Part shown: one piece after another, positions 3,105 through 9,463 of the stretch | Layout of the letters: every line of letters starts with the position of its first letter | How positions within the stretch are numbered: position 1 is the stretch's first letter | NCBI GenBank assembly: GCA_018335575.1 | Contig: JAGXRT010000035.1 | Coordinates: forward strand, 1-64,000 | Reading direction: 5' to 3' | DNA from: Bacteroidota bacterium | GTDB taxonomy: Bacteria; Bacteroidota; Bacteroidia; Flavobacteriales; Flavobacteriaceae | Length of the DNA stretch: 64,000 nucleotides | Translations under genes and position numbers: made by a program | The notes under the pieces: model-generated | What the model was told of the DNA's origin: nothing | Databases searched by the model: none | The model's input: only the letters and a program-made list of their open reading frames with translations

Positions 3105-4430
3105 TTAATTTAAAACAATTGGAATACCGTAATAATATTCAAGTAGCTTGGTTTTAAATACATAGTTGTATTTGGCGTTAATATAGCTTGATTGAGCTGC
3201 GACTAAACGCGCTCTTACTTGTTCAAAATCAAAAGAAGTCAAAGCGCCCAAATCAAATCTGATCTGAGCATTGTTAAATGATTCTTGCTGTGTTGTAACT
3301 GATTTTTCTGAAGCAATATATTGATTTAGTGCAGCTTTGGCATCGGCGTATGCACGTTCTATACTTTCTCGTAGTTTTAATTTTTCATTATCCAATGTGT
3401 AAGAAGCCAATTGGGTATTGATTGCCGCTTTGGCGATACCTGATTTTGTTCTAAATCCGTTAAAGATTGGAATATTTAATGATAAATTTATATTATGACT
3501 CTTATTATCTTCAAACTGATCTAAGAAACTGTCTTGATTTGGTAAGCCATTGGTATGTCCGTAAAATGTGCTAAAACTATAACCCATTGAAAGGCTAGGG
3601 TAGTTAAACGATTTTGCAATATTTACCCCCAATTCAGCATTTTTTACCTCTAATTCAGCGCTTTTAATTTCTGGTTTTTCTGCTACAGCCTTAGAAAATA
3701 TGGCATCGGTATCATTGTATTTTAGATTTGGTGCTCCAATTGAAAACTTTACATCTTCTATGTCTATATTTCTATGAGAAATTTGAAGTAATTGAGCAAA
3801 ACTTAACAGTGAAAGATCTAAGCTGTTTTGAGCAGTTACTAGTTTTTCTTCATCACTTGCAACAGTTGCTTCGGCTTCTAATTGTTCGCTTTTTGCTCTA
3901 GCACCTTCTGCTACTAATTGTTTAACTTTTGATAATTGTAACTTGCTTATTTTTAGCTGGTCTTGTGCTACTTTTAAATTTTCTTTATTAAAAAGAATGT
4001 TTAAATATGAGTTTACTATGTATAAAGAAATATCATTCTTCATTTTTTCCAAGTCAAGAATACTGGCTTCATGCCCTAGTTCTGCTTGTTTAATAGTATT
4101 TAAATTTCTAAAACCATTAAACAAAGTTACAGATGAAGAAACTCCAAAACTAGTAGAGTTTCTGTTTCCAGATATTCTGATATTTCCATTATCTATTGAA
4201 GATCCAAATGAAAACGACTCTGAAGCAGATGCATTTAATGACGGTAATCTATTGCCTTTTGCAGTAATTATATCTTCATTTTTTAAGTCAGTTGTTAACT
4301 CTGCTTGTTTTACAGATAAATTGTTGGTTAATGCATAATTAACAGCTTCTTCTAAACTCCATATTTTATTTTGAGCAGTTAAACTGATTGAAAAACTGAG
4401 TAAAATGAAAAGTATATTTAGTTTTTTCAT
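3105..4430 (-). CDS. TolC-family outer-membrane efflux protein
   Basis: Outer-membrane exit duct for a tripartite exporter. The 441-residue protein opens with a signal peptide (MKKLNILFILLSFSISLTAQ) and shows two OEP repeats. Each has long amphipathic helices typical of the periplasmic tunnel (roughly residues 30-220 and 240-430), with beta-strand-like stretches such as SFGVSSSVTLFNGFRN and LSLNIPIFNGFRT that mark the barrel strands of each half. No membrane-fusion protein or inner-membrane pump lies next to it, so its transport partner must be elsewhere. It is divergent from the carotenoid regulator, and the phased ATTAA repeats lie 56-115 bases upstream of its start. Confidence 0.92.
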   Translation of the reverse strand: MKKLNILFILLSFSISLTAQNKIWSLEEAVNYALTNNLSVKQAELTTDLKNEDIITAKGNRLPSLNASASESFSFGSSIDNGNIRISGNRNSTSFGVSSSVTLFNGFRNLNTIKQAELGHEASILDLEKMKNDISLYIVNSYLNILFNKENLKVAQDQLKISKLQLSKVKQLVAEGARAKSEQLEAEATVASDEEKLVTAQNSLDLSLLSFAQLLQISHRNIDIEDVKFSIGAPNLKYNDTDAIFSKAVAEKPEIKSAELEVKNAELGVNIAKSFNYPSLSMGYSFSTFYGHTNGLPNQDSFLDQFEDNKSHNINLSLNIPIFNGFRTKSGIAKAAINTQLASYTLDNEKLKLRESIERAYADAKAALNQYIASEKSVTTQQESFNNAQIRFDLGALTSFDFEQVRARLVAAQSSYINAKYNYVFKTKLLEYYYGIPIVLN

Positions 4431-4485: not shown

Positions 4486-4546
4486 ATTAAATTATATTAA
4501 AATTGTATTAAATGTAATTAATCTATTAAACAACTACTTTATTAAC
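4486..4546. repeat. Helically phased ATTAA repeats, candidate operator
   Basis: ATTAAA occurs at 4486, 4496 and 4507, ATTAAT at 4517, ATTAAA again at 4525 and ATTAAC at 4541. The first four steps are 10, 11 and 10 bases, so they lie on one face of the helix. They sit between the divergent tolC and the CarH-like gene. Known CarH proteins bind tandem direct repeats of about 11 bases as tetramers, so these are operator candidates. The region is very AT-rich and chance phasing is possible. Confidence 0.4.
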
Positions 4547-4588
4547 CTTTATTTACAGAATGTAAACTAAATTATTAATTTAATACAT

Positions 4589-4596
4589 TAGTTTTG
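4589..4596 (+). promoter_or_regulatory. Minus-7 element of the carotenoid operon
   Basis: TAGTTTTG fits TAnnTTTG and lies 21 bases before the ATG at 4618. I see no TTG at the usual distance upstream; that position is instead close to the ATTAA repeats. Confidence 0.4.
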
Positions 4597-4617
4597 TTTA
4601 AGTAATACATAAAAACT

Positions 4618-5514
4618 ATGAACAATATTATAAAAATATTTTCTATAAAAGATTTAGAAAGTTTTTCTGGTATAAAGGCACATACAATTAGAATTTGGGA
4701 AAAAAGATATAATTTGTTACAACCGTTTAGATCAGATTCTAACATTAGATATTATGATGAAGTGAATTTTATTAAGTTACTTAATATCGCATCCTTGTAC
4801 CAAGAGGGTATAAAAATATCTAAAATTGCAAGGTTATCTAATGAGCAAATAGAAGATAAAGTTAAAGAACTTAAAGTTGCTAATAACAATCCCATCGTCA
4901 ATAGGTTTTTAATCTCAATGTTGCAGTTTGATGTAAATCAGTTTAATGGAATTTATAATGAATTGCGTTTAACAACATCGTTGAGAGAAATTTTTATTGA
5001 GATTTTTGTTCCGCTTCTTGATAAGATTGGATTTTTATGGCAAACTAAATCAATAGTTCCGGCACATGAACATTTTATATCCAATTTAATAATGCAAAAA
5101 ATTTATGCTGCTGTAGATCAGGTAAATAAAACTAATTCAAATAAAGATCAGGAAACCTTTGTGTTATTTTTGCCATTAAATGAAATTCATGAATTAGGAT
5201 TATTATTTTTATATTATGAATTGTCTCAATTAAACAAAAATACTATTTATTTAGGTAGAGATATTGAGGTTGAGCACCTTGTAAAGATTAATTCAATTTA
5301 TCCTAAAGTTCACTATATTACGTATGTAACGGTAGAGTCTAATGAGGTAGGTTTAGGGGATTATGTTAAAAATATAGATGAAAAGCTTTTAAAAGGAACT
5401 TCAAATAAATTTTCAATTTTGGGAAAAATTAATAAAAATGATTTTAACAGGTTGATTTCTAACAACATTTCATATTTTTTATCAATAGATCAATTGTTAA
5501 AAGCTATTAAATAA
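4618..5514 (+). CDS. CarH/LitR-like MerR-family regulator with cobalamin-binding domain
   Basis: Predicted regulator of the carotenoid operon it heads. Residues 6-75 form a MerR winged helix (FSIKDLESFSGIKAHTIRIW, then EKRYNLLQP and the NIRYYDE wing). The C-terminal part resembles the B12-binding region of CarH. The helical-bundle motif W-x9-EH is intact (W141, E151, H152), and the cobalamin fold carries E-x-H-x-x-G (E189, H191, G194), where the His is the lower axial ligand in characterised CarH. The residue after W141 is Gln142, at the place where Thermus CarH has the His that forms the light-state adduct. CarH proteins repress carotenoid genes in the dark with adenosylcobalamin; light control here is inference. 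Confidence 0.85.
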   Translation: MNNIIKIFSIKDLESFSGIKAHTIRIWEKRYNLLQPFRSDSNIRYYDEVNFIKLLNIASLYQEGIKISKIARLSNEQIEDKVKELKVANNNPIVNRFLISMLQFDVNQFNGIYNELRLTTSLREIFIEIFVPLLDKIGFLWQTKSIVPAHEHFISNLIMQKIYAAVDQVNKTNSNKDQETFVLFLPLNEIHELGLLFLYYELSQLNKNTIYLGRDIEVEHLVKINSIYPKVHYITYVTVESNEVGLGDYVKNIDEKLLKGTSNKFSILGKINKNDFNRLISNNISYFLSIDQLLKAIK

Positions 5515-5564
5515 CCTGCAATTTTATTGTTTTGTTTAATAAATTTACAAAAAGATTAAACAAA

Positions 5565-7052
5565 ATGAATAAAGTAATTGTAATTGGCTCGGGTTTTTCT
5601 TCTCTAGCAGCCTCTTGTTATTTAGCTAAAGCGGGTCATAAGGTAGTCCTTTTAGAGAAAAATAACACTGTTGGCGGTAGGGCAAGAATATATAAAACAG
5701 AAGGCTTTAAATTTGATTTAGGTCCAACATGGTATTGGATGCCTGATGTTTTTGAGCGATTTTTTGCTGATTTTGGTAAAAAGCCAGAAGATTATTATGA
5801 TTTAGAAAAATTAAATCCTGCCTATCAGGTATATTTTGATAAGTTAGATTCAATCAAAATACCTGATAATTTACAAGCAATTTATGAAGTTTTTGAAAGC
5901 CATGAAAAAGGAAGTTCTGTGCATCTTAGAAACTTTATTAACGAAGCGCAAGATAATTACAACATTGCTATAAAAGAATTGGTATATAAACCTGGAAACT
6001 CAATTTTAGAATTAATAACACCTAAAACCATTAGTAAAATTTCATCATTTTTCACAAACATCTCTCAAGACATACGCAGAAATATTAAAAATGAAAGATT
6101 AAGACAACTATTAGAATTTCCCGTGTTGTTTTTAGGTGCAAAACCAAGTCAAACTCCGGCATTTTATAATTTTATGAATTATGCCGATTTTGGTTTAGGC
6201 ACATGGCATCCGAAAGGAGGAATGAATGAGGTAGTAACCGCCATTGAAAAGTTAGCAAAAAGCTTAGGAGTAGAAATTAAAACTGGGCAGACGGTATCAA
6301 AGATAATTGTTGAGCAAAATGTAGCAAAAGGAGTTGTTGTAAATGACAAATTAATAAAAGCTGATTTTATTTTAAGCGGTGCCGATTATCATCATACAGA
6401 AAGTTTGTTGATACCAAAGTATAAGCAATATTCAGAAAAGTATTGGGAAAATAGAATATTTGCGCCTTCGGCTTTACTTTTTTATGTCGGGTTTAATAAA
6501 AAATTAGAAAATGTTTCGCATCATACATTGTTTTTTGATACGTCATTTAAAGATCATTCTGAAGCAATTTACGATATTCCATCTTGGCCTAAAAGACCTC
6601 TTTTCTATGCCAGTTTTCCTTCAATAACTGATAATACTTTTGCTCCAGAAAATAAAGAAGCGGGGATATTTTTAATTCCATTGGCTCCAGGTATTGAAGA
6701 CACCGCTATAGCACGAGAATTTTATTTTGATCAACTAATTAATAGGTTAGAGCAACTTACTAATCAACAAGTCAAAAACTCAATTTTATTTAAAGAATCT
6801 TATTGTGTTAATGATTTTATTAAAGATTACAATTCGTACAAGGGAAATGCGTATGGTTTAGCAAATACACTAATGCAAACTGCTTTTTTAAGACCAAAAA
6901 TTAAAAGTAAAAAAGTTAACAATTTATATTTTACCGGACAATTAACAGTACCTGGTCCAGGTGTTCCACCGGCACTTATATCTGGTAAAATTGCAGCGAA
7001 TTTAATTAACAATCAAATAAAAAAAAATAATTATTATGAAACAGCTGTTTGA
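5565..7052 (+). CDS. crtI: Phytoene desaturase CrtI
   Basis: FAD-dependent desaturase converting phytoene to lycopene, peripheral on the inner membrane. The 495-residue protein starts with an N-terminal dinucleotide fold (VIVIGSGFSSLAAS, residues 4-17) and the GGRAR motif at 38-42. It ends with the CrtI signature YFTGQLTVPGPGVPPALISG. I chose ATG 5565; the frame opens 33 bases earlier at a TTG, but the Rossmann strand begins right after this ATG. The gene lies 50 bases after the regulator and overlaps crtB by 17 bases, so coupled translation is likely. Four-step desaturation is the usual activity but the step number cannot be read from sequence. Confidence 0.95.
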   Translation: MNKVIVIGSGFSSLAASCYLAKAGHKVVLLEKNNTVGGRARIYKTEGFKFDLGPTWYWMPDVFERFFADFGKKPEDYYDLEKLNPAYQVYFDKLDSIKIPDNLQAIYEVFESHEKGSSVHLRNFINEAQDNYNIAIKELVYKPGNSILELITPKTISKISSFFTNISQDIRRNIKNERLRQLLEFPVLFLGAKPSQTPAFYNFMNYADFGLGTWHPKGGMNEVVTAIEKLAKSLGVEIKTGQTVSKIIVEQNVAKGVVVNDKLIKADFILSGADYHHTESLLIPKYKQYSEKYWENRIFAPSALLFYVGFNKKLENVSHHTLFFDTSFKDHSEAIYDIPSWPKRPLFYASFPSITDNTFAPENKEAGIFLIPLAPGIEDTAIAREFYFDQLINRLEQLTNQQVKNSILFKESYCVNDFIKDYNSYKGNAYGLANTLMQTAFLRPKIKSKKVNNLYFTGQLTVPGPGVPPALISGKIAANLINNQIKKNNYYETAV

Positions 7053-7872
7053 TACTGTATCGGTTAGCTGTAGTAAGTTAGTAACCAAATCTTACAGTAC
7101 TTCATTTACACTTGCTGTAAAAATGTTGGCGCCTTCTATTAGAAATCCAATATATAGTATTTATGGATTTGTTAGACTGGCAGATGAAATTGTAGATAGT
7201 TTTCATGAATTTGACAAAGAACAATTATTAAATGAGTTTGAAGCAGATTATTATAAAGCTTATAATACAGGAATTAGCCTTAATCCAATTTTAAATGCAT
7301 TTCAACAAACAGTAAAAACATATAATATTGAAGATAATTTAGTCCAAGCATTTTTAGCTAGTATGAGACAAGATCTAAAAAAGGTAAGCTATACAAATGA
7401 AGAATTAAATCAGTATATTTATGGATCTGCAGATGTTGTTGGATTAATGTGTTTAAAAGTTTTTGTCAATGGTGATGAAGAAAAATATAATGAATTAAAA
7501 GACGCTGCTATGAGTTTAGGCTCGGCTTTTCAAAAAGTTAACTTTTTACGCGATTTAAAGGATGATGTAGAACATTTAGACAGAATGTATTTTCCAAATA
7601 TTGATCTTTTAAATTTAGACATCAAATCTAAAAATGATATTATAAATGAAATTGAAGCTGATTTTCAAAAAGCTTATGATGGAATTAAAAAATTACCAAC
7701 TGTAGCAAAATTTGGAGTGTATACAGCATATGTATATTATAAATGTTTGTTGAATAAATTAAAGAAAACACCATTTAACAAATTAATAAATACAAGAATT
7801 AGAGTCTCGAATCCTCATAAAATTAGTTTGCTTACAAGATCATTTTTAATATATAAATTTAATTTACTGTAA
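7036..7872 (+). CDS. crtB: Phytoene synthase CrtB
   Basis: Head-to-head condensation of two geranylgeranyl diphosphates to phytoene, the entry step of the pathway. At 278 residues it has normal length and both Mg-diphosphate-binding DxxxD motifs: DEIVD near residues 50-54 in the context RLADEIVDSF, and DLKDD near 174-178 in NFLRDLKDD. The substrate-loop SYSTSFTLA is near 19-27. The start lies inside the end of crtI. No crtE-like GGPP synthase is in the window, so that supply comes from elsewhere. Confidence 0.95.
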   Translation: MKQLFDTVSVSCSKLVTKSYSTSFTLAVKMLAPSIRNPIYSIYGFVRLADEIVDSFHEFDKEQLLNEFEADYYKAYNTGISLNPILNAFQQTVKTYNIEDNLVQAFLASMRQDLKKVSYTNEELNQYIYGSADVVGLMCLKVFVNGDEEKYNELKDAAMSLGSAFQKVNFLRDLKDDVEHLDRMYFPNIDLLNLDIKSKNDIINEIEADFQKAYDGIKKLPTVAKFGVYTAYVYYKCLLNKLKKTPFNKLINTRIRVSNPHKISLLTRSFLIYKFNLL

Positions 7873-7875
7873 ATC

Positions 7876-8322
7876 ATGATTTTATTTTTTATAGGCATTA
7901 CTCTTGTTACATTTGTATTGATGGAGGGCGTTACTTGGTTTACCCATAAATATGTTATGCATAAATTTATGTGGTATTTTCACCAAGATCATCATCAACC
8001 AAAATATCAAAATGCTTTTGAAAAAAATGACATCTTTTTTGTGATTTTTGCTATTCCAAGCATTATCTTATTTTATTTTGGAGTCAATGAAGGGTTAAAT
8101 TTTATGTTCTTTATTGGGTTGGGAATTCTATTTTATGGGATTTCTTATTTTTTAATACACGATGTGCTAATTCATCAAAGGTTTAAATGGTTTAAAAACA
8201 CTAAAAACAAATATTTAATAGGGTTGAGAAAAGCTCATAAAGTCCATCATAAGTATTTAGATAAAGAAGATGGAGAGTGTTTTGGAATGTTATTAGTACC
8301 ATTTAAATATTTCAACATCTAG
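7876..8322 (+). CDS. crtZ: Beta-carotene 3-hydroxylase CrtZ
   Basis: Di-iron integral-membrane hydroxylase that adds the 3 and 3' hydroxyls to beta-carotene, giving zeaxanthin. The 148-residue protein carries the histidine clusters of the fatty-acid-hydroxylase-like superfamily: HKYVMH near residues 23-28, HQDHH near 36-40, HDVLIHQ near 96-102 and HKVHHKY near 117-123, spread over four hydrophobic segments. It begins three bases after crtB. The position between crtB and the lycopene cyclase supports zeaxanthin or a derivative as the end product. Confidence 0.93.
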   Translation: MILFFIGITLVTFVLMEGVTWFTHKYVMHKFMWYFHQDHHQPKYQNAFEKNDIFFVIFAIPSIILFYFGVNEGLNFMFFIGLGILFYGISYFLIHDVLIHQRFKWFKNTKNKYLIGLRKAHKVHHKYLDKEDGECFGMLLVPFKYFNI

Positions 8323-8324
8323 AA

Positions 8325-9002
8325 ATGTCTTCACTTTATTTAATAGTAAATATTGCTTCCCTAAGTGTTCCTCTTATTTATAGTTTTGAAAAGCGGATGC
8401 ATTTTATACAATGGTGGAAAGAGGTATTTTTATCAATTCTTATTGTTGGCACATTTTTTATTTTATGGGATGTTATATTTACAGATTTAGGAGTTTGGGG
8501 ATTTAACAGAAAGTATTTAGTAGGTATTACAGCTATTAATTTGCCTATAGAAGAATGGTTATTTTTTATATGCATACCATATGCCAGTATATTTACACAC
8601 TACGCCGTAATTTATTTTTACCCTCAATTTAAATTAGAAACTACAGCTATCAAAATTATTTCTGGTGTGTTGATTACATTTTTACTAATGGTAGTAATTT
8701 TTAATGTTGATAAGAAATACACATTTTACAATTTTACGTTATTAATAGTGCTGCTACTTTATGGATTTTTTAAAAATGATAAATCCATTAAAATTTTTTA
8801 TTTAACATTTTGTATAATATTAATTCCGTTCTTTTTAGTTAATGGTATTTTAACAGGTAGTTTTATTGATGAACAAATTGTTTGGTATAACGATGCAGAA
8901 AATTTAGGAATACGACTATTTACTATTCCAATTGAAGATGTTGGATACGCTTTTAATTTATTGTACATGAATATTTTATTAATTGAAAAATTAAAAAAAT
9001 GA
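8325..9002 (+). CDS. Fused heterodimer-type lycopene beta-cyclase (CrtYc-CrtYd)
   Basis: Membrane lycopene cyclase producing beta-carotene. The 225-residue protein is a tandem of two lycopene-cyclase domains, each with three predicted helices: the first ends around LPIEEWLFF (near residues 75-83) and the second around IPIEDVGYAF (near 201-210). The paired acidic PIEE and PIED motifs are those of CrtYc and CrtYd, which are separate genes in actinobacteria and one polypeptide in archaea and Bacteroidota. It is unrelated to the FAD-type CrtY. It overlaps the next gene by ATGA, indicating translational coupling. Confidence 0.9.
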   Translation: MSSLYLIVNIASLSVPLIYSFEKRMHFIQWWKEVFLSILIVGTFFILWDVIFTDLGVWGFNRKYLVGITAINLPIEEWLFFICIPYASIFTHYAVIYFYPQFKLETTAIKIISGVLITFLLMVVIFNVDKKYTFYNFTLLIVLLLYGFFKNDKSIKIFYLTFCIILIPFFLVNGILTGSFIDEQIVWYNDAENLGIRLFTIPIEDVGYAFNLLYMNILLIEKLKK

Positions 9003-9463
9003 AAGTTTATTCGTACCAAACCCAACAGTTAATTTATACTTCTTTAGAAACATGTTGGGAATTTTTTTCAAGTCCTTTAAATTTAGAAAAAATAACACCT
9101 CACAAATTAGGATTTAAAATTATTGGTAAAAGACCAGACAAAATGTTTCCAGGTCAATTAATACAGTATACTGTTTCGCCAATTTTAGGATTAAAATTAA
9201 ACTGGTTAACAGAGATAACTCAAGTAAAAGAACATCAATACTTTATAGATGAACAACGATTTGGTCCCTACAAATTGTGGCATCATCAACATAGATTTAA
9301 AGAAACAGAGCAGGGTATTGAAATGATTGATATCGTGGAATATGCACTACCTTTTGGATTTCTTGGTAGAATTTTACACAAGATTTTTATAAGAAAGCAA
9401 ATTGAAGAAATTTTTATCTATAGAAAAAAGGTAATAGAAGAATTGTTTCCAAAAAAAACTTAG
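8999..9463 (+). CDS. SRPBCC-family protein in the carotenoid operon
   Basis: A 154-residue START/Bet v1-like hydrophobic-ligand fold: YSYQTQQLIYTSLETCWEFF at the N terminus, then SSPLNLEKITP, a central beta-sheet with GPYKLWHHQHRFKE and a C-terminal long helix ending in basic residues. The fold usually encloses a lipophilic ligand. It is the last gene of the operon and its ATG overlaps the cyclase stop, so a role in binding or handing on a carotenoid, or in colour modification, is a fair guess, but no activity can be read from the sequence. Its TAG stop overlaps the stop codon of the convergent neighbour. Confidence 0.8.
   Translation: MKVYSYQTQQLIYTSLETCWEFFSSPLNLEKITPHKLGFKIIGKRPDKMFPGQLIQYTVSPILGLKLNWLTEITQVKEHQYFIDEQRFGPYKLWHHQHRFKETEQGIEMIDIVEYALPFGFLGRILHKIFIRKQIEEIFIYRKKVIEELFPKKT

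Follow-up and report, generated by a model that had tools for sequence, protein, structure and literature searches.

A CarH-like regulator gene and a conserved inverted repeat at a flavobacterial carotenoid operon: a candidate operator class and a proposed light regulon

Organization of the carotenoid locus

The window, which is the whole stretch of 64,000 nucleotides analysed here (contig JAGXRT010000035.1 of the Flavobacteriaceae assembly GCA_018335575.1), contains a carotenoid operon on the forward strand with a MerR-type regulator gene at its head. This gene, merR (4618-5514), encodes a protein of 298 residues and is followed by crtI (5565-7052), a phytoene desaturase that scores 723.7 bits against the NCBIfam model NF058655 (CrtID, cut-off 640). 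Downstream lie crtB (7036-7872), a phytoene synthase matched by Pfam SQS_PSY with an E-value of 3e-47, a crtZ-like carotenoid hydroxylase gene (7876-8322, Pfam FA_hydroxylase), which is also present in the crt cluster of many relatives, and a lycopene cyclase gene of the CarR/CrtY type (8325-9002, Pfam Lycopene_cyc and TIGR03462). The last gene of this tightly packed operon encodes an SRPBCC-fold protein (8999-9463) that is 51% identical to the product of a gene at another operator-linked locus, L101. In other genomes the homologous gene stands alone and has an operator copy to itself, of the kind described below, and six operator-linked loci have a member of the family.

The divergent neighbour of merR encodes a TolC-family outer membrane protein (3105-4430, reverse strand, Pfam OEP). 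In many relatives, the place of this gene is taken by a tRNA gene that looks like tRNA-Leu and lies directly before merR, 60-170 bases upstream of it (L009, L013, L016, L034, L047 and others).

Two candidate operators, both on the forward strand, lie at or near the two ends of the merR reading frame. Operator P (4594-4625) is an exact TTGTTTA-N18-TGAACAA inverted repeat which lies on the merR promoter and start codon, and its left half overlaps the predicted -7 element TAGTTTTG (4589-4596, forward strand), a match to the Bacteroidota TAnnTTTG consensus. Operator I (5532-5563) is a symmetric inverted repeat, TTGTTTAAT-N14-ATTAAACAA, located between merR and crtI, immediately ahead of the crtI ATG at 5565; it matches the pattern exactly on both strands.

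The regulator protein

The product of merR is composed of a winged helix, a four-helix bundle and a Rossmann domain, as judged from Pfam matches, sequence matches to the PDB, an AF2 model and fold comparison. Pfam identifies MerR_1 (residues 8-75) and B12-binding_2 (95-163), while the Pfam search gave no match to the Rossmann model B12-binding (PF02310). In the AF2 model, which has a pLDDT of 88.8, the Rossmann domain (180-297) is intact. CarH is the top PDB match by sequence, and the cobalamin domain of Thermus thermophilus CarH can be superimposed on the predicted fold with a Z-score of 20.3 and a deviation of 2.2 Å over 195 residues; the next-closest structures are a photocobilin and then CtMerR. 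The gene is the single CarH-like copy in the 2.2-Mb genome, which is 88.9% complete. The first-pass annotation had described it as a CarH-like MerR gene heading the crt operon, and domain matches, PDB match and fold all agree with that assignment.

Both cobalamin motifs recognized in that annotation, W141-x9-E151-H152 and E189-x-H191-x-x-G194, occur at exactly these residues and are highly conserved. W141, E151 and H152 are present in all 65 aligned loci and in 73 of the 74 loci of a held-out set, E189 and H191 are invariant in the 65, and G194 is found in 62 of them. The motifs are kept in about 140 flavobacterial relatives, nearly all of which have crtI beside the regulator gene (within 150 bases of merR in 68 of 74 held-out loci). 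In three small-genome flavobacteria (L056, L057 and L061), crtB directly follows merR and the Gly of the ExHxxG motif is replaced by Ser or Ala; this is perhaps a decaying or B12-independent form of the regulator. The recognition helix, RIWEKRY, is invariant across the 42 sequences of one alignment (A2) and differs from RxWERRY by a single Arg to Lys replacement.

Other features of the protein depart from CarH. The rest of the classic B12 motif, x41-SxT/V-x22-27-GG, is incomplete in the 65-locus alignment: the SxT/V position is T-Y-V (235-237) in the window and mostly S-Y-F in relatives, and only one glycine of the GG end, G269, is conserved. Against the NCBIfam CarH model (NF052513) the protein scores 57.1 bits, below the cut-off of 400. 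Because the defining motif is incomplete and this cut-off is missed, the protein is CarH-like rather than a strict CarH. The position of CarH His132, the residue after the Trp that serves as upper ligand in the light state, is occupied by Gln142 in 63 of 65 loci. According to one study, His132 is needed for dissociation of the CarH tetramer in light, and the H132A variant remains mostly tetrameric when illuminated (PMC10442372). Since this residue is replaced, another ligand may serve if the flavobacterial protein responds to light. His150, which immediately precedes E151-H152 in 61 of 65 loci and is a Glu in T. thermophilus CarH, would be a candidate for such an alternative cobalt ligand, judging from the alignment.

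These departures speak for an alternative in which regulator and palindrome are as above but the light switch does not depend on cobalamin, repression being B12-free and relieved by a partner protein or by another signal, for instance singlet oxygen or redox. The incomplete motif, the missing PF02310 match and the Gln at the position whose replacement leaves CarH mostly tetrameric in light (PMC10442372) would all fit such a protein, and there are precedents in CarA of Myxococcus xanthus and in the class II LitR proteins. Weighing on the other side, the four residues that contact adenosylcobalamin (AdoCbl), namely the Trp, Glu, His and lower His, are invariant, while CarA has no such Trp, and the model shows a complete Rossmann domain, which class II LitR does not have. 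A B12-free switch is accordingly regarded as possible but rather unlikely.

Control of the carotenoid genes by B12 and light, as the first-pass annotation proposed, is supported as far as a CarH-like regulator at the head of the operon goes; the cobalamin and light steps are inferred. Genes for a PduO-type cobalamin adenosyltransferase and for other B12-binding proteins are present in the genome, so that AdoCbl can be made, given a supply of cobalamin.

A conserved inverted repeat at merR and crtI

The CarH half-site TnnACA and its complement were scanned upstream of 65 loci in all orientations and at all spacings. One pair stands out, TGTYYA followed by TRRACA, 24 bases from start to start. 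This spacing occurs upstream of merR in 46 of 65 loci and between merR and crtI in 29 of 65; any other spacing occurs in at most four. From a second set of 80 loci, the 74 with proteins absent from the first set were used as the held-out set; in it, spacing 24 was found at merR in 61 of 73 and at crtI in 27 of 74, with a few pairs at 25 and almost none otherwise. The general pattern is TTGTTTA-N18-TRRACAA, in which each half is a TnnACA half-site and the two halves are inverted, 24 bp apart. The consensus of the merR sites is TAnnTTTGTTTAA-N16-TGAACAA and that of the crtI sites is TTTTGTTTAAC-N14-GTTAAACAA. Apart from operators P and I, neither the window, where 0.22 matches would be expected, nor the whole 2.2-Mb assembly has an exact match. 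When one mismatch is allowed, the window genome gives 41 matches compared with 40 for a reversed-pattern control, and further targets there are not claimed.

The site has a characteristic position relative to the promoter. In 56 of the 61 held-out merR sites its left half overlaps, in the same register, a TAnnTTTG box, which is predicted to be the -7 element from its match to the consensus, and 23 of the 27 held-out crtI sites contain such a box. Location over and around TAnnTTTG boxes fits a repressor. The crtI site is found chiefly with merR-crtI gaps of 45-90 bases, where 46 of 54 loci have it, and in none of the 27 loci with a gap shorter than 20 bases, a pattern to be anticipated if transcription of such closely placed crtI genes starts at the merR promoter. 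Some merR promoters have a degenerate site or none.

Usually, the right half of the site at merR shares bases with ATGAACAA. A coding constraint on this half was considered and rejected, since at L014, L047, L054, L058, L259 and L304 the site precedes the ATG and the spacing is kept. Where the site lies before the ATG, its right half is TAAACA or TAGACA. The two arms sometimes co-vary, as in TGTCTA/TAGACA at L058 and TGTTCA/TGAACA at L245.

Distribution of the site across genomes

Exact sites, whose counts were collated by hand, average 3.00 in 46 genomes with the MerR protein (reversed-pattern control 0.65) and 0.77 in 57 genomes lacking it (control 0.49). Phylogeny and genome size are confounding factors in this comparison, and presence or absence of the protein is set by a single search threshold. 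A stricter pattern has matches in 37 of 120 genomes, and its control has none. Two nearly complete genomes lacking MerR, G183 and G230, were rejected as counter-examples, all seven of their examined sites being deep in coding frames. Another genome with sites and no MerR, G082, is 81% complete.

A site lies within 200 bases upstream of 31 of 55 flavobacterial proteorhodopsin genes; shuffles give an expectation of 0.07, and of 256 other genes five have a site. Here too the spacing is 24 and hardly any other. Within genomes that have MerR, 29 of 45 proteorhodopsin genes carry an exact site and 35 of 45 carry one that matches at 11 of the 12 half-site positions; within genomes that lack it, the figure is 2 of 10, both in incomplete assemblies. 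At about a third of the proteorhodopsin genes in MerR genomes, the site is missing or degenerate. The sites lie 30-110 bases upstream, often as two copies 34-35 or 43-45 bases apart. In the window genome no proteorhodopsin was found at the cut-off used, so that the targets indicated there are merR and crtI only.

The gene families repeatedly found at sites are CrtI, MerR, fasciclin lipoproteins, SRPBCC proteins, TetR_C_23 regulators opposite HtpG, GHMP (mevalonate-type) kinases and GLPGLI proteins. Single cases include a photolyase, a desaturase-like carotenoid enzyme and a proteorhodopsin-blh gap. In the last of these (L148, at about 80294 on contig 3 of genome G037), the operator copy lies between the divergently transcribed proteorhodopsin and blh genes, and would couple the opsin to the enzyme that makes its retinal.

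Apart from the crt genes, no operator-linked family is larger than that of the fasciclin-domain lipoproteins (L085, L106, L114, L124, L129, L133, L143, L157, L163 and L164), whose genes are often divergent from a conserved gene of tRNA-modifying type. Some of them have double operators 43 bases apart (L114, L124 and L158), as the proteorhodopsin promoters L181-L205 do at 34-35 and 43-45 bases. These spacings, about one helical turn apart, suggest phased, cooperative binding.

The TetR_C_23 regulator gene also carries an operator, and is usually divergent from htpG (L099, L141, L154, L155 and L175), hinting that a downstream cascade or control of the chaperone may be involved. The six operator-linked loci of this family, several of them divergent from htpG, could mean instead that the palindrome belongs to a different light or stress regulator, such as the TetR_C_23 protein itself, and that merR is just one of its targets. 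Such an assignment appears improbable, since the enrichment of sites follows the presence and absence of MerR across genomes, the seven examined sites of G183 and G230 are chance matches in coding sequence, the half-sites match that of CarH, and the only exact sites in the window genome are at merR and crtI.

It is more doubtful still that the repeat acts at the level of promoter or RNA, for example as a hairpin or a compositional bias at the start site, instead of as a protein operator: it does overlap the -7 box and often the start codon, but the spacing of 24 is kept at three kinds of promoter despite differing registers to box and start codon, the proteorhodopsin sites are often doubled and lie far enough upstream to be partly outside any transcript, and the repeat depends on the presence of MerR.

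The ATTAA repeats and tolC

The first-pass annotation had placed the operator further upstream, at four ATTAA words spaced 10, 11 and 10 bases (4486-4521, forward strand). The words are indeed present, starting exactly at 4486, 4496, 4507 and 4517, and more of them occur at 4525, 4541 and 4574. A chain of four 5-mers at steps of 10 or 11 bases arises in 0.1% of dinucleotide shuffles of the gap, a figure that applies to a word picked after looking at the sequence, and such a chain is also present in 3 of 82 AT-rich segments of 187 bases from the same window. No chain of four is found in any of 64 relatives, and the longest in 73 held-out loci has two words, so that the phasing is absent from all 137 relatives, including one from the same genus. 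On the evidence of the shuffles and the relatives, the ATTAA words were rejected as an operator; they are not conserved and are outside the mechanism proposed below. The conserved signals, the inverted repeats at 4594-4625 and 5532-5563, had escaped that annotation. A short inverted repeat, TTTACA-GAA-TGTAAA (4553-4567), lies between the ATTAA words and the operator, and its halves fit TnnACA.

The accompanying suggestion of a tetramer on 11-base direct repeats is not borne out by the held-out set, where TnnACA pairs at 11 bp occur before merR in 0 of 73 loci. Joint control of the divergent tolC was likewise rejected for want of synteny: among 65 loci a TolC homologue is found beside merR in the window's own locus only, and the conserved operator, which covers the -7 box of merR itself, is separated by at least 164 bases from the start of tolC. 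A tetramer that reads the ATTAA repeats and controls both crt and tolC is therefore hardly credible: shuffled versions of the gap seldom show the phasing, but it is missing in 137 of 137 relatives, ATTAA does not contain the TnnACA core, and the relatives have no tolC beside merR.

Comparison with known systems

The closest relatives of the flavobacterial regulator are the CarH proteins (class I LitR) of T. thermophilus, Bacillus megaterium and M. xanthus, with which it shares the domain order, the fold, the Wx9EH and ExHxxG motifs, the recognition helix, linkage to crt genes, the TnnACA half-site and a site over promoter elements. CarH operators consist of three to four 11-bp direct repeats, nnnnTnnACAn (PMC9304148), whereas the halves of the flavobacterial site are inverted and 24 bp apart. 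Further differences are the Gln in place of His132, a residue that is frequent though not universal in CarH, the incomplete SxT/V...GG motif, the score of 57 bits relative to the 400-bit NCBIfam cut-off, and proposed targets that include proteorhodopsin.

CarA of M. xanthus is also a MerR regulator with a B12-type fold that acts on crt genes. Its operator was first described with two inverted repeats, and later work favours recognition of direct repeats. CarA has no Trp in the Wx9EH motif and works without B12, whereas W141 is invariant in the present family.

The class II LitR proteins of Pseudomonas (PmlR2 and PplR1) are LitR/CarH-family repressors whose site likewise has two halves and whose regulon takes in photolyase among other light genes. 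Their site, TGTACA-N12-TGTACA, has an 18-bp period (PMC9758184), as opposed to 24 for TGTTTA-N18-TAAACA here, and the class II form T(G/A)TACA-N12-TGTA(C/T)A is not matched in the 65 and 73 loci, where the conserved spacing is 24 and not 18. These proteins have the helical B12 subdomain only and a LOV partner, while the flavobacterial protein has a Rossmann domain. The B12-binding domain of CtMerR (8jbs) and the photocobilins (8j2w) are cobalamin photosensors with CarH-like folds (Z 17-19), but differ from the flavobacterial protein in effector or DNA-binding context.

In Flavobacteriaceae strain GF1, a MerR gene with a B12-binding domain before the zeaxanthin genes has been noted as a hint of photo-oxidative control (PMC6974559). 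The gene arrangement is the same, and the GF1 locus (L270) carries the P operator; the relevant passages of the GF1 paper describe no operator, regulon or mechanism.

Proposed mechanism

The interpretation that best accounts for these features, and that is probably correct in outline, is a CarH-like dark repressor with an inverted-repeat operator and, in relatives, a wider light regulon. In the dark, AdoCbl-bound MerR would assemble on the TTGTTTA-N18-TRRACAA inverted repeat. On operator P (4594-4625) it would cover the -7 box and the start codon, and on the second copy, before crtI (5532-5563), it would cover the start of that gene, so that RNA polymerase would be blocked at both operators. 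Light would break the Co-C bond, loosen MerR and free the operon. The outcome would be autoregulation and induction of crtI, crtB, crtZ, crtY and the SRPBCC gene. In relatives, the reach of the same pair of protein and operator would extend to proteorhodopsin, blh, photolyase and other light genes. The evidence for this regulon comes entirely from comparison of genomes.

The way in which CarH recognizes 11-bp direct repeats cannot serve for inverted halves with a spacing of 24 bp. One possibility is that the protein would bind as a two-fold symmetric dimer of head-to-tail dimers.

Significance for flavobacterial light responses

The kind of regulator is known; the operator architecture and the proposed regulon appear to be new. 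In the literature searched, from which subscription papers were mostly absent, no description was found of the inverted 24-bp site or of control of proteorhodopsin by a CarH-like or MerR protein. Expression of proteorhodopsin increases in the light in Dokdonia MED134 and in microcosms that contain flavobacteria, but not in all strains (PMC3380642), and no regulator of this induction was found in the same literature. The broadest form of the proposal is a unified flavobacterial light regulon, in which a CarH-like B12 photoreceptor with its own class of operator (TTGTTTA-N18-TAAACAA, inverted) would directly repress in the dark the genes for proteorhodopsin, retinal, carotenoids, photolyase and photoprotection; it is about as likely as not.

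If true, such a regulon would supply the switch behind light-induced proteorhodopsin expression, and this switch would depend on the supply of cobalamin. The 32-bp site before proteorhodopsin, where a CarH-like gene is present, leads to the prediction that the response to light of abundant marine photoheterotrophs is governed by the availability of B12. A further consequence would be that CarH-type proteins are able to recognize both inverted and direct repeats, a point of interest for their evolution and for optogenetic applications. For the flavobacteria themselves, the distribution of the operator suggests that one regulator may switch pigments, light repair and light-driven energy capture together.
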